NCBI GenBank assembly: GCA_031279415.1
Contig: JAITIP010000035.1
Span: 1 to 64,000, forward strand
Direction: 5' to 3'
Origin: Candidatus Endomicrobium procryptotermitis
GTDB lineage: Bacteria; Elusimicrobiota; Endomicrobiia; Endomicrobiales; Endomicrobiaceae
Length of the DNA stretch: 64,000 nucleotides
Made by a program: the position numbers and the translations under genes. The notes beneath the pieces were generated by a model, which did not search any database, was not told where the DNA came from, and saw only the letters and a program-made list of their open reading frames with translations. The stretch's first letter is position 1. Each line of letters opens with the position of its first letter. Of the stretch, positions 1 to 64,000 are shown one piece after another.

Positions 1-1668
1 AATATATGGGTAAATGATAATATAAGCATAGCGCCATATGGACATATAAAGAGTGGATATGTGAGGAATTATTCATCAAGAGAAAAAGGAAGAGCCGGAG
101 CAAATATAGAGATATATGAAAATGATTATTTAAGAACTGAAGGGAGACTGGGAGTAGGAATAAATTATGTAATAAACAGGCTGTCGCTGTACTGTAAGGT
201 GTCGGGTGGATATGTAATGGCAGGAGACAGAGCTGAATACTCTGGAGAATTTTTAGACAGCGGCGAAAAAATGGAAATATGGGGAACGTCATCTGAAGGA
301 ACAATAAAAGTAATAGGCATCGGAGCGGAATATGAGATAGCAGACAGTTTGAGCATATATACAAATGTGAACGGAAATTATTATAACAACGGCAGAGAAT
401 ATTACGGGAATATAGGCTTAAATTATAGTTTTGCGATGGTAGAAAAAGAGAGGAGAGAGGAGATAGAAAATAAAATAATACAAGAGATAATAACGGAGAA
501 AGAAATAATAAACATTTTTGAAACAAAAGGGGAAAAAAATGCTTCAGCGGAAATAAAAGAAAATATCAGAGAAAAGCTCGGGCTGGAAGAAGGTAAAGAG
601 GTAAGTGTTCTAAAATACAGTAAACATATATTTTTCTTTAAAGAGGAAGAAGATGTCAAAAAATTTAAAAATAAAATAAAAGAAGCAGGAGGAAGAGTAA
701 GTGGAAAAAAAGTAAAGAGAGTTTTAGACGGAGGAAAGTTATCGTTTAAAGGCTACGAGAAAGAGCTGGGCGATATGAGAGAAGGAGTACTAATATTGCA
801 ATATGAAAATGGATTAAACGAGATAAAAGCCATACCAGAAGAGGCAAGAAGAGCGCAGCGAAATACCATAATAGAGAGCGTGCTGGAAGAAAGTCAGGCG
901 AGCATGGTATGGGAGATGGAAGTAGAAAACGACAATGTTAAAATAAGTAAGGAAGTAGTAGGAAAATTGGGAATTAAAGAAGGGAGCAGCATATACTTGT
1001 TAAATTATGGCAGAAGAATATTTTTATTTAAGAATAGGGTTGAAGCAGCGGAATTTTTATGGAAATTGATGGATGCCGGCGCAAATATAGATGAAGAAAA
1101 TATAAGAGAGATAGAAGGAGTAGAGGTAAAAAATGAAGATGTTGTGGGGATAAATGTGGAAGAGTTAAAAGATATAGGCGATTTAAGCAAAGGTATAAGA
1201 TTCGAACATTATGGGAAAGATAATACAACGGAAGTAAAATCGGTTGCTGAAGAAGAAAAGAGGTCAAAAGAAGAAGAGATAACAAAAGAAAAAGTAGAAG
1301 GGGCGATAGAGAGAAGACAAAAGCCGATGATAAAAAAATATAAATTAAATGTGGCAAATTTTGGGTTAAACGAGTATTCATTGACAAATAAAGCAAAACA
1401 GATAATAGCGCAGGAAGCTAAAGAAATAAGAAAATATGATTATACGCTGATAACCGTAGAAGGCCATACTGATTCGACAGGCCGCGAAGAAATAAATGAA
1501 AAAATATCGAGATCAAGAGCGCAAAGCGTATATAAAGAATTTTTATTAAACGGAATACCTGCAGGCAAAATAGGATTCATCGGTTACGGTTCACGGGTGC
1601 CGATAGCGACAAACGCTGCGGAAGAGGGGAGAGCTGCAAACAGGAGAACAGAAATTTATGTCGAGTAA
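1..1668 (+). CDS. Autotransporter-type beta-barrel fused to OmpA domain (5' end outside window)
   Basis: The reading frame is open from the first base, so the gene starts upstream. Residues here are counted from the Val codon at 61. Residues 1-123 are alternating aromatic/polar strands typical of the last strands of an autotransporter barrel and end NYSF, the usual C-terminal barrel aromatic. The protein then continues instead of stopping: a charged linker, two related domains (about 162-260 and 293-400, each with KLG(L/I)xEG, a hydrophobic strand, F(F/L)FK and an AG turn), a Glu/Lys linker, and an OmpA-like peptidoglycan-binding domain (430-535) with GHTDSTG and the NRRTEI signature. It probably anchors a surface protein to the cell wall. 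Codon choice is unusually purine-rich (ATA, AGA, GGA, GAA) compared with downstream genes. OmpA identification is firm; the function of the duplicated domain is unknown. Confidence 0.85.
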   Translation, partial: NIWVNDNISIAPYGHIKSGYVRNYSSREKGRAGANIEIYENDYLRTEGRLGVGINYVINRLSLYCKVSGGYVMAGDRAEYSGEFLDSGEKMEIWGTSSEGTIKVIGIGAEYEIADSLSIYTNVNGNYYNNGREYYGNIGLNYSFAMVEKERREEIENKIIQEIITEKEIINIFETKGEKNASAEIKENIREKLGLEEGKEVSVLKYSKHIFFFKEEEDVKKFKNKIKEAGGRVSGKKVKRVLDGGKLSFKGYEKELGDMREGVLILQYENGLNEIKAIPEEARRAQRNTIIESVLEESQASMVWEMEVENDNVKISKEVVGKLGIKEGSSIYLLNYGRRIFLFKNRVEAAEFLWKLMDAGANIDEENIREIEGVEVKNEDVVGINVEELKDIGDLSKGIRFEHYGKDNTTEVKSVAEEEKRSKEEEITKEKVEGAIERRQKPMIKKYKLNVANFGLNEYSLTNKAKQIIAQEAKEIRKYDYTLITVEGHTDSTGREEINEKISRSRAQSVYKEFLLNGIPAGKIGFIGYGSRVPIATNAAEEGRAANRRTEIYVE

Positions 1669-61227: not shown

Positions 61228-62309
61228 TAAAATTTTTCCTTTATAGCAATGATAAGTTCCGTAATTTTAGTATTGAAATTATTTAATAATTCTGTTGAAC
61301 GATTTTCCTTTACAACATTCTGTAAATTTACAGACATGTTCGCCATTTCTGTATTTATTTTTTTTGTTTCATCGAGTATTGCCTTTGGACTTATAGCCAT
61401 ATCTATTCCAGCCTGTACGGCTTGCTTTCGTTTTTCTTTATCCATTAGCTCAGCAATTCCCTCTGCAATCTGTATTTGATACTCTTGTAATTTATTATTT
61501 AGCTTTGAGAGATGATTGTATATAGCAACATTAGCAGCAACTCGTCTATTTTCCAATTCTTTCGCTTCAGCTTGGCTTTCTATGGTTCCTTCATTAAATT
61601 TTCTGCCTGTATCCAATTGTTCTTCGTAAGACCTTTGCGTAGCTTTCAAGCTCTGCGCTTCTTGTAGCACAGCTTGCCGTTTAAGCTCCTGAGCTACTTT
61701 TGTCTCAGAACGTCCTACTGTTATCTGTTGCGCAGTTTTTTCAATATCCGAAGTAATAAAGCTTTCAAGTTTTCCTACGGCTCTTTGTCCGAATATTTGA
61801 GCTTCAAGTTTTCCTCTTTCCGTAGCTTCCATGCCAGCTAAGACTTTTGAAATCTCAACAAAAACCTTAACCATATCAGTTTCATTTTTGTAAGCGCTCA
61901 AAATATTCTCTTTGCCGAGTCTTGCTTCGCCTATCATCGTTTGAAGACGCGTCATTATATTTATAAGGTCGCCCTCTTCAACTCCCTTAGCCATTGCCAC
62001 AGACTGAAAAGCAAAATATTGCGCTTCATCAGTACCAAACTGCGTGGCTCGTGTTTTAATATCGCCTGCTTTTGCAAGAATTGTGTTGATTTTTTCGTCA
62101 GCTTCCCGAAGCGGATTAAGGATAGCATTTGAAAGCATGGCAAATGACACTCCGATAGCTCCGCCAGTAAGACCAAAACGAATAGCGCCTTGCAGTCCGC
62201 GTCCGAATTTGCGGGCAACATTTGAAAAGCGCTGCGTTAAACGCGTTTCCATTTGCTTTAATTTTGAAGTATCAAGCATTGGCTGAACTTTTAAAATGTA
62301 AGAACTCAT
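61227..62309 (-). CDS. Short tail tape-measure protein
   Basis: Start at 62309 (MSSYIL), GAGG nine bases upstream; the frame is open to 62327. 360 residues. Features of a tape measure: one hydrophobic stretch (GRGLQGAIRFGLTGGAIGVSFAML), then long helical, Glu/Gln/Lys-rich regions (KRQAVLQEAQSLKATQRSYEEQL). It follows the tail chaperone and its frameshift extension, as in all long-tailed phages. Much shorter than usual (600-1500 residues), so the tail should be short. Confidence 0.7.
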   Translation of the reverse strand: MSSYILKVQPMLDTSKLKQMETRLTQRFSNVARKFGRGLQGAIRFGLTGGAIGVSFAMLSNAILNPLREADEKINTILAKAGDIKTRATQFGTDEAQYFAFQSVAMAKGVEEGDLINIMTRLQTMIGEARLGKENILSAYKNETDMVKVFVEISKVLAGMEATERGKLEAQIFGQRAVGKLESFITSDIEKTAQQITVGRSETKVAQELKRQAVLQEAQSLKATQRSYEEQLDTGRKFNEGTIESQAEAKELENRRVAANVAIYNHLSKLNNKLQEYQIQIAEGIAELMDKEKRKQAVQAGIDMAISPKAILDETKKINTEMANMSVNLQNVVKENRSTELLNNFNTKITELIIAIKEKF

Positions 62310-62414
62310 CTTTGTAAACCTCACCATAAAACGCTAAGTTTATTAAATCTTCAAGCATGAAATGCTTTGTTTTGTACGCTTCTGCCATTAAGTCCACGCT
62401 AAAATTATTTAGTT
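62272..62414 (-). CDS. -1 frame extension of the tail chaperone (frameshift product)
   Basis: The -1 frame continues 46 residues after the slip: LNNFSVDLMAEAYKTKHFML and then EDLINLAFYGEVYKDEFLHF, ending at 62272. It has no start of its own of note and begins in the chaperone stop region. It overlaps the tape-measure start by 38 bp, typical for the G/GT pair. Fused product about 172 residues. Confidence 0.8.
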
Positions 62415-62789
62415 TTTTTTTACGTCTTCGGAAATCGAATAAAGTTTTATTTTTGAAAGCTCTAAACACACAGCAACAATAACGTCTATTAATTGGTCAG
62501 GCTTCATTTTTGCCGTATTAATCTTTGTTAAAGGAATGCCATTGACATCACAGCAAAAACAAGTTATAGCGTCAACCTCATCTTGTTCTATCGGCACAAG
62601 CGCCGCCGCTTCTCTTAATATTTTCTCTTTATCCTCTTCACAAGCGGCATCAAACTCTTCAAGAAATTTTTCATAATTTTTATTCATATTTGCAGGAAGC
62701 ATTTTATAACCAAGTAACAGCGTGTGAAAACTGTTAAATGCGCGCAGGCTCTTCAGCCCTTCAAGCGCTAAAACCTTTAGATTTATCAT
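62409..62789 (-). CDS. Tail assembly chaperone, gpG-like
   Basis: 126 residues. Helical, with acidic middle (FLEEFDAACEEDKEKIL) and QLIDVIVAVCLELSKIKLY before the end EDVKKN. Its last codons are AAA AAA AAC TAA. Gene order (after the tube protein, before the tape measure) and the A_AAA_AAC slippery site make it the short form of the tail assembly chaperone pair that coats the tape measure during assembly. Overlaps the tube gene by 1 bp. Confidence 0.78.
   Translation of the reverse strand: MINLKVLALEGLKSLRAFNSFHTLLLGYKMLPANMNKNYEKFLEEFDAACEEDKEKILREAAALVPIEQDEVDAITCFCCDVNGIPLTKINTAKMKPDQLIDVIVAVCLELSKIKLYSISEDVKKN
62412..62418 (-). promoter_or_regulatory. -1 ribosomal frameshift site A_AAA_AAC
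   Basis: Minus strand heptamer A AAA AAC, in frame with zero-frame codons AAA and AAC, and immediately followed by the zero-frame stop TAA. The -1 frame is open for 46 codons. This is a classic slippery sequence. Confidence 0.85.
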
Positions 62790-63217
62790 TATGCTGCCTC
62801 TTCTTTTAGTTTGTCGTCAACGTCAAAACTTTGCAGCGTAAGCTGAATGTTTAAGTCGTCACGGTTTTCGGATATGGAAAGCTGGCGGACTCTCTTTGAA
62901 ATCAAAGCATTGTTGATAAAACGCGCGTCGCCGGTTTTTCTGTCTATGACATAACCTGTTATCCTCTCTTCGGTTTCATATAGCCTGTTTAAAAGATTTA
63001 TTATAGCTGTCGGCACGTTCATAATCGGAATAGTTATAACATCCGCAGTACTGCCGCCTTCAAGAATTGGAATACCTGTTTTATTTTTGGAATTAATCCC
63101 GCGCTGAAGAGTTTTTTGCTGGCCGTCTTCTATCGTCATTCCGTCGCAGTGTTCAAAGTCATACGATTGGCCATTGTATTTAAAACCAAAATCGCAATTA
63201 TTTATTCTGAAAATCAT
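62789..63217 (-). CDS. Tail tube protein
   Basis: 142 residues, beta-rich: RINNCDFGFKYNGQSYDFEHCDGMTIED, IPIMNVPTAIINLLNRLYET, and an end RDDLNIQLTLQSFDVDDKLKEE. Tube proteins of contractile tails have this size and position right after the sheath gene. It overlaps both neighbours by 1 bp. Family not matched by eye. Confidence 0.65.
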   Translation of the reverse strand: MIFRINNCDFGFKYNGQSYDFEHCDGMTIEDGQQKTLQRGINSKNKTGIPILEGGSTADVITIPIMNVPTAIINLLNRLYETEERITGYVIDRKTGDARFINNALISKRVRQLSISENRDDLNIQLTLQSFDVDDKLKEEAA

Positions 63218-64000
63218 TATTGAGCCTCCCCTTGTATTAAATCAACATCAATACCCCAGAGAGCTTTTGGCGACGGAACTGCAATAACTCCCGCAGCACG
63301 CCAATTATCATTTATAAGCTCTATACTTACATTTGCGCTTACGACAAGCCCTGTACTTACATATTTGCGGTTTAAAACCTGCTGCACTTCATCTTCAATC
63401 AAAGAGGCTTCGGTAATTGTGTAATCAGGATTATTCAATGCAATATATGATACTGCTGCGCTTTGCGCGTCAAGCGTCAGATTTTCATAAATATATGGCG
63501 CAGTTATAGCTTGCTTACCGGCGGCAAAAAAAGCTAACCGCTTTCCATACTGTTCAGAATTTAACACAAAACTTACGCCGTCATTAAAATACGCTTTTGC
63601 AGTTTCAACGTCGCTTATTGCGTCGTCATACGGCATTTCAATATATTGCTGGTTTCGCCAAGACGTCGAAGATAAAAACTTACCGAAAGCATAAAACATA
63701 TTCTTTGCGCCGTTTGACAGTAGCCCGTAAAAACCACAGCGCCTTGAAGCTGTCGCAAAAGCTTTGGCAAGCTGTTCGTCATCAAATGAATAGGCAACAA
63801 TTCCTTTGAAAGTCCCGACATTAAGACTGCCGATTTCACCCTGATTAAAATCGCGCGAAACTAAAACTGTGAAATACTTGTTTTTACTTGCTTCAATCAA
63901 TGCTTCTGCGTCGGCAATATCTGCAATAGGCAAAACATAAACAGCATTCATTCCTGCGTTAAATAACTCCAATACATCGGCGTTATCCGTTAACGCTTGC
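63217..64000 (-). CDS. Tail sheath protein, C-terminal part (runs off the window)
   Basis: The frame is open to the window edge (position 63999), so the N-terminal part lies outside. The part seen, about 260 residues, has KGIVAYSFDDEQLAKAFATASRRCGFYGLLSNGA, a domain of sheath-like type, and a C-terminal end with VVSANVSIELINDNWRAAGVIAVPSP and WGIDVDLIQG, the usual sheath end strands. It forms the contractile sheath around the tube. Confidence 0.7.
   Translation of the reverse strand, partial: QALTDNADVLELFNAGMNAVYVLPIADIADAEALIEASKNKYFTVLVSRDFNQGEIGSLNVGTFKGIVAYSFDDEQLAKAFATASRRCGFYGLLSNGAKNMFYAFGKFLSSTSWRNQQYIEMPYDDAISDVETAKAYFNDGVSFVLNSEQYGKRLAFFAAGKQAITAPYIYENLTLDAQSAAVSYIALNNPDYTITEASLIEDEVQQVLNRKYVSTGLVVSANVSIELINDNWRAAGVIAVPSPKALWGIDVDLIQGEAQ

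Follow-up and report, generated by a model that had tools for sequence, protein, structure and literature searches.

A tailed autotransporter of an Endomicrobium-like bacterium with two predicted MraZ-like domains and an OmpA-like domain after its β-barrel

In bacteria other than Proteobacteria, the way in which the outer membrane is attached to the cell wall is under active study. The closest described systems are trimeric autotransporters; in the available part of the source, these include Veillonella proteins with a C-terminal SLH domain or coiled coil and eight Streptobacillus moniliformis proteins with a C-terminal OmpA domain (PF00691) (PMC7549365). Like the protein described here, they carry an adhesin barrel followed by a C-terminal periplasmic wall-binding domain, and the same tether is proposed for them. 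The trimeric proteins have a YadA anchor and belong to type Vc, whereas the present protein has a PF03797 barrel (type Va), carries two predicted MraZ-like units before its OmpA domain, and comes from another phylum (PMC7549365). The LysM domain of YeeJ, as described in the portion available, binds peptidoglycan and raises the amount of the protein at the surface (PMC5595812). Inverse autotransporters such as YeeJ are, as we propose for the present protein, surface adhesins tied to peptidoglycan from the periplasm; in YeeJ, however, the wall-binding LysM domain is N-terminal and precedes the barrel, and there are no units, whereas here the OmpA domain comes after the barrel (PMC5595812). OmpM, from what the available text describes, resembles the proposed protein in that one chain spans and tethers the outer membrane (PMC10628300). 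OmpM differs from the protein studied here in being no autotransporter, and it reportedly binds the wall through an N-terminal SLH domain.

For the lineage itself, the available text of the Endomicrobia genome paper describes murein synthesis as kept and BamBCD and LptD as absent (PMC11257099), which makes the envelope of this class walled but unusual; the string “autotransport” is absent from the main text of that paper. Among open-licence papers, we found no report of wall-binding tails in Elusimicrobiota, on barrels of the PF03797 family, or with a fold of AbrB/MraZ type. C-terminal wall-binding domains have already been described for trimeric autotransporters (PMC7549365, in its available part); the novelty here lies in the type of barrel, the lineage, and the predicted MraZ-like tandem.

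The stretch of DNA analyzed here (the window, 64,000 nucleotides) comprises the first 64,000 of the 71,516 bases of contig C35, in a genome of 2.0 Mb and 46 contigs. A reading frame is open from position 1 to 1668 on the forward strand (555 residues), with no start codon within the window. Because the window begins at the contig end, the gene is cut on its 5′ side, and its own passenger and the first half of its barrel are absent. Its features are as follows.

1–432, + strand: 3′ half of an autotransporter β-barrel ending in NYSF (residues 1–144); PF03797; an untailed paralogue lies on contig C34
472–834, + strand: unit 1, first predicted MraZ-like domain (cradle-loop barrel type; residues 158–278); related to unit 2, conserved in relatives, and with the strand/helix order of unit 2 in the model
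859–1248, + strand: unit 2, second predicted MraZ-like domain (residues 287–416); AF2 model, Foldseek, and VIA
1243–1317, + strand: predicted long charged helix joining unit 2 to the OmpA domain (residues 415–439); helix 265–289 of a 405-residue model that starts at window residue 151
1360–1644, + strand: OmpA-like peptidoglycan-binding domain (residues 454–548); PF00691, sequence matches in the PDB (among them OprF), and model matches
1666–1668, + strand: stop codon

Residues 3–124 match profile positions 129–255 of the 255 positions of PF03797 (40.5 bits; Pfam cut-off 26), and residues 454–548 match PF00691 (62.9 bits; cut-off 27.2). The autotransporter barrel and the C-terminal OmpA domain named in an earlier note on this DNA are therefore both borne out, as is its estimate that the frame runs on for about 410 residues past NYSF: 411 residues follow this motif (residues 141–144). 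Complete PF03797 barrels are found in two relatives, L067 (75.4 bits) and L068 (112.7 bits), both of which show, by eye, the signal peptide and passenger that the contig end removes from the window. None of the seven Pfam matches of the window protein at E up to 1 is a YadA anchor domain. The barrel is of the type Va kind, but since 411 residues lie beyond it and it is not the last domain, we file the protein as a tailed variant rather than as a classical type Va member. In the OmpA domain, the HTDS and SRSRA segments align with OprF (5u1h), and we take the Asp of HTDS and the Arg of SRSRA to be the residues that hold diaminopimelate.

A gene lying at a contig end, within a repeated barrel, could be an assembly or frame artefact in which a barrel has been joined to an unrelated OmpA gene. 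Scanning named genomes returned five loci, all from Endomicrobium sp. (MAGs Gx485_bin123, Im510_bin129, and Kf353_bin60). The inventory of related genomes proposed in the earlier note thereby gave the same order of parts at four loci of the three MAGs, where the match covers the whole query; the fifth locus (L071) matches only over the 24 residues adjoining the OmpA domain. L067 (1865 aa) and L068 (1496 aa) are full frames with signal-peptide-like starts, as judged by eye, complete barrels, and the same tail, and similar barrel–OmpA frames occur in seven genomes. As independent Endomicrobium relatives carry the gene whole, we reject an assembly chimera, and we consider an artefact of either kind extremely improbable. 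G002, a unit-bearing relative genome, has the same genus label as the window.

Contig C34, another contig of the window genome, starts with the same 119 bases as C35, which indicates that the assembly broke inside the repeated barrel. The paralogue at the start of C34 (L079:1–432) has a barrel 75% identical to that of the window gene and ends right after NYSF, so that this genome holds tailed and untailed sister barrels. Between window positions 1–432 and L079:1–432, identity comes in blocks, the 119 identical bases being the first; such a block-wise pattern would fit gene conversion between the two paralogues.

The earlier note had treated a tail after the barrel as an exception. We listed PF03797 matches over 94 genomes of the class and PF00691 matches over 39, and paired them by eye according to contig, strand, and open frame. 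At least 25 genes in seven genomes of the family (G000, G010, G013, G014, G022, G023, and G031) encode a barrel followed by an OmpA domain, all with an in-frame gap, and the idea that this fusion is unusual in Endomicrobiaceae was rejected. Among the matches listed, the gap between the two Pfam matches spans 66–213 residues in 24 of the 25, and that of the window gene, at 329 residues, is the longest. Autotransporter barrels as such were found in at least 53 of the 94 class genomes, two of these lying outside Endomicrobiaceae among the matches listed. This lineage, with its gut and protist hosts, appears to build a wall anchor into many adhesins per genome. A further kind of tail was seen in G000 (contig C46, L080:3762–9554), where a barrel is followed by about 680 Lys/Glu/Ala-rich residues, probably helical, that run off the contig end.

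The duplicated unit is far rarer. Its profile matched 7 of 95 class genomes and the identical 7 of 294 phylum genomes; one of these matches, in G077, was rejected because the frame was judged by eye to encode a MiaB-like tRNA enzyme. Six of 294 genomes in the phylum thus bear the unit, all of them in Endomicrobiaceae. A scan of genome contigs with a single protein gave no match.

The units are about 120 residues each. Aligned with each other, unit 1 (residues 158–287) and unit 2 (288–430) score 149, compared with a mean of 42.2 (SD 7.3, maximum 76) for 1000 shuffles of unit 2. A score so far above the shuffles means that the likeness is not due to chance, and the internal duplication described in the earlier note, which recurs in independent relatives, holds.

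A model of the 405-residue tail, built from five sequences, reached a pLDDT of 77 and a pTM of 0.75, and a fold search with it was filled by OmpA-like domains (Z up to 14.5); unit 2 was therefore modeled alone. The AF2 model of this unit has a pLDDT of 84 and a pTM of 0.79. In Foldseek, ranks 1–8 are all MraZ (E 1.4e-3 to 2.9e-2, probability 0.99–1.00, TM 0.47–0.54), and the probability drops to 0.15 at rank 9. VIA likewise places MraZ first, with Z 8.5–8.6 and an rmsd of about 3.0 over 104–105 of 130 residues, and CheX next at Z 3.9; by the VIA guidance, Z values under 8 may reflect a common arrangement, and the MraZ match lies just above this value and far from the rest. A viral fold library gave nothing for the unit model at E up to 0.001 (best E 1.7e-2, probability 0.16), and a family missing from such fold lists is not thereby proven absent. 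The earlier note had held that the duplicated domain matches nothing known to its author; the unit modeled alone, by contrast, matches MraZ in fold.

MraZ (1N0E) consists, in the available part of its description, of two copies of an AbrB-type β–α–β element in one chain (PMC4739770), and, again in the available text, it binds DNA and regulates the dcw operon (PMC7761207). The predicted order of the unit is strands, helix, strands, helix, and then the same again, so that two AbrB-type halves in one chain are present in the model, and one unit would share its fold with MraZ (PDB 1n0e, 9qlg, 9r4j, and 9sz7). Unlike MraZ, the unit has no arginine at the motif position, occurs in two copies, and belongs to an envelope protein that is secreted. 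We conclude that the unit is predicted to fold like an MraZ/AbrB-type barrel. The claim concerns the fold and not family membership, since the sequence comparisons with MraZ were no better than controls and the halves of the unit are not detectably alike. If the predicted fold is true, the barrel of a regulator has become a part of the envelope.

The comparisons in question were made at several levels. A profile search of the duplicated domain, as suggested in the earlier note, gave a divided answer: Pfam placed no AbrB or MraZ model on 21 units, and MazE_antitoxin (PF04014) came near its cut-off on the window gene (positions 472–1248, two stretches, 22.4 bits, below the cut-off of 24.7), with no such match in the unit stretches of five relatives. 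The KLG-x-EG turn of the unit lies where this near-match falls, and we take it to fit the AbrB-type signature. The AbrB model TIGR01439 weakly matched 2 of 21 units, and the antidote model TIGR02609 matched in a window unit. MraZ (PF02381) was absent among matches at E up to 10 in six unit stretches; in this range, HMMER filtering removes most matches with E above about 0.1. Against PDB sequences, profiles A2 and A6 gave nothing significant; four of the top eight matches of A6, which covers the first half of the unit, are double-psi-barrel proteins (E 0.08–0.72), namely FwdD, thiosulfate reductase, and two designed DPBBs, the former two presumably containing double-psi barrels.

Profile–profile comparison of the unit with 17 MraZ sequences of the class scored 14.2–15.1 (probability below 1%), and at least 6 of 60 column-shuffled controls, which reach 21.3, equalled or exceeded 14.2. 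With a home-made MraZ+MazE model, no unit scored above the 99th percentile of background, the best three background matches of which may themselves be AbrB-type frames from the fetched loci; in rank tests, the units gave p 0.028 when compared with shuffles and 1.9e-5 when compared with background. The two halves of one unit show no significant sequence likeness to each other, unlike those of MraZ. We take D-x-x-x-R to be the DNA-contact motif of MraZ; D.KNR or D.QGR is present in MraZ sequences of the class, and at the corresponding position, read by eye in the profile–profile register, none of the 21 units has an R.

These results could also mean that the fold match stems from convergence or model bias and that the unit represents a novel fold family with no relation to AbrB/MraZ. 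The lack of a significant sequence link to MraZ, the Foldseek E values of only 1.4e-3 to 2.9e-2 at TM about 0.5, and an AF2 alignment of 10 rows from five proteins all speak for such a reading. MraZ nonetheless stands far above everything else (Z 8.6 versus 3.9) and is matched over 105 of 130 residues, and the weak sequence matches (MazE, TIGR01439, TIGR02609, and the DPBBs) point to its metafold; we therefore consider a new fold family unlikely.

Unit-bearing proteins number 16 in the six genomes by our count, and the parts are combined in three ways. Seven are fused proteins with a barrel, two units, and an OmpA domain, the barrel being without Pfam confirmation in two of them (L032, with no match at E up to 0.01, and L025/L069, outside the Pfam scan). 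Four are secreted-looking proteins from three genomes that have no barrel but carry an OmpA domain and either one or two units (L029, 442 aa; L030, 421 aa; and 272-aa proteins in L035 and L036), as seen in a Pfam scan covering L029, L030, and L035. The remaining five combine a barrel region with a single whole or partial unit and have no OmpA domain (L031, L033, L034, and two in G014); in L031, PF03797 gave no match at E up to 0.01, and L033 was outside the scan. The OmpA-less and barrel-less kinds occur together in G005, G014, and G018. In G014, an OmpA-less barrel gene has a barrel-less gene as its neighbor at two loci, separated by 13 bases, and the tail of the barrel protein spans only positions 37–97 of the 119-position unit profile. 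At these loci (L083:3–13275 and L084:1939–19000), the autotransporter open frames are 7051 and 8163 aa long, and each is followed by a near-identical 272-aa unit+OmpA gene. With the parts split between proteins, and neighbors in one genome, the units may also dock partners.

We propose, with a probability of roughly 0.7, that the window gene encodes a tailed surface protein in which two MraZ-like barrels, a helix, and an OmpA domain act as a wall tether and the units serve in addition as a docking module. The frame would be the 3′ end of a gene whose product, in an Endomicrobium-like bacterium, is a very large surface protein. This protein would be secreted, its C-terminal barrel entering the outer membrane and its passenger being displayed outside. 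Once past its final barrel strand, the chain of an autotransporter is in the periplasm. Here it would run on as a tail of two swapped-hairpin (cradle-loop) barrels of MraZ/AbrB type, the long helix, and the OmpA domain, which, having the binding-site segments, would grip peptidoglycan. This order of parts is naturally read as a periplasmic tether to the wall, which would anchor both the adhesin and the outer membrane. The units and helix would bridge the gap between barrel and wall, the units being a rigid spacer, and barrels without an OmpA domain of their own would use the separate secreted unit+OmpA proteins by docking through the units.

The units might instead do no more than space the outer membrane from the wall, passively and without binding anything, the split forms being decayed genes. 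The linkers of 66–213 residues with which other fused genes reach the wall indicate that docking is not needed for tethering, and the fused gene L028 has a TAA between its units and OmpA domain, as decay would give. The case for docking is also drawn from the gene content of few genomes, and in G025 (59% complete) an OmpA-less barrel protein was found without a barrel-less partner. A pure spacer would, however, have no reason to persist in the barrel-less secreted proteins of three genomes, and the linkage of the gene pair at two loci in G014 also argues against it. We hold the passive-spacer reading to be somewhat short of an even chance; for our proposal of tether plus docking module, the adjacent split pair in G014 offers a direct binding test.

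We found MraZ (PF02381) in none of 40 Endomicrobiaceae genomes and in 17 of the 19 class genomes outside this family; any link between this absence and the units is speculation. On a further and doubtful extension of our proposal, the MraZ/AbrB fold would have moved to the periplasm in Endomicrobiaceae, which apparently lost MraZ, and would now be a self-pairing module (in tandem in the fused adhesins, or as a barrel copy plus an OmpA-protein copy in the split systems) that clips adhesins to the wall or gathers them in rings.

Two minor observations concern other stretches. L028:13443–14000 holds tandem repeats that are open in several frames and encode HPELVSGS-like peptides. At the right end of the window, from about 61230 to 64000 and on to position 71516 of C35 (L041), the genes are prophage-like, and one of them encodes a terminase large subunit (phrog_38, E 1.4e-33); a scan of three other proteins there found no PHROG match.
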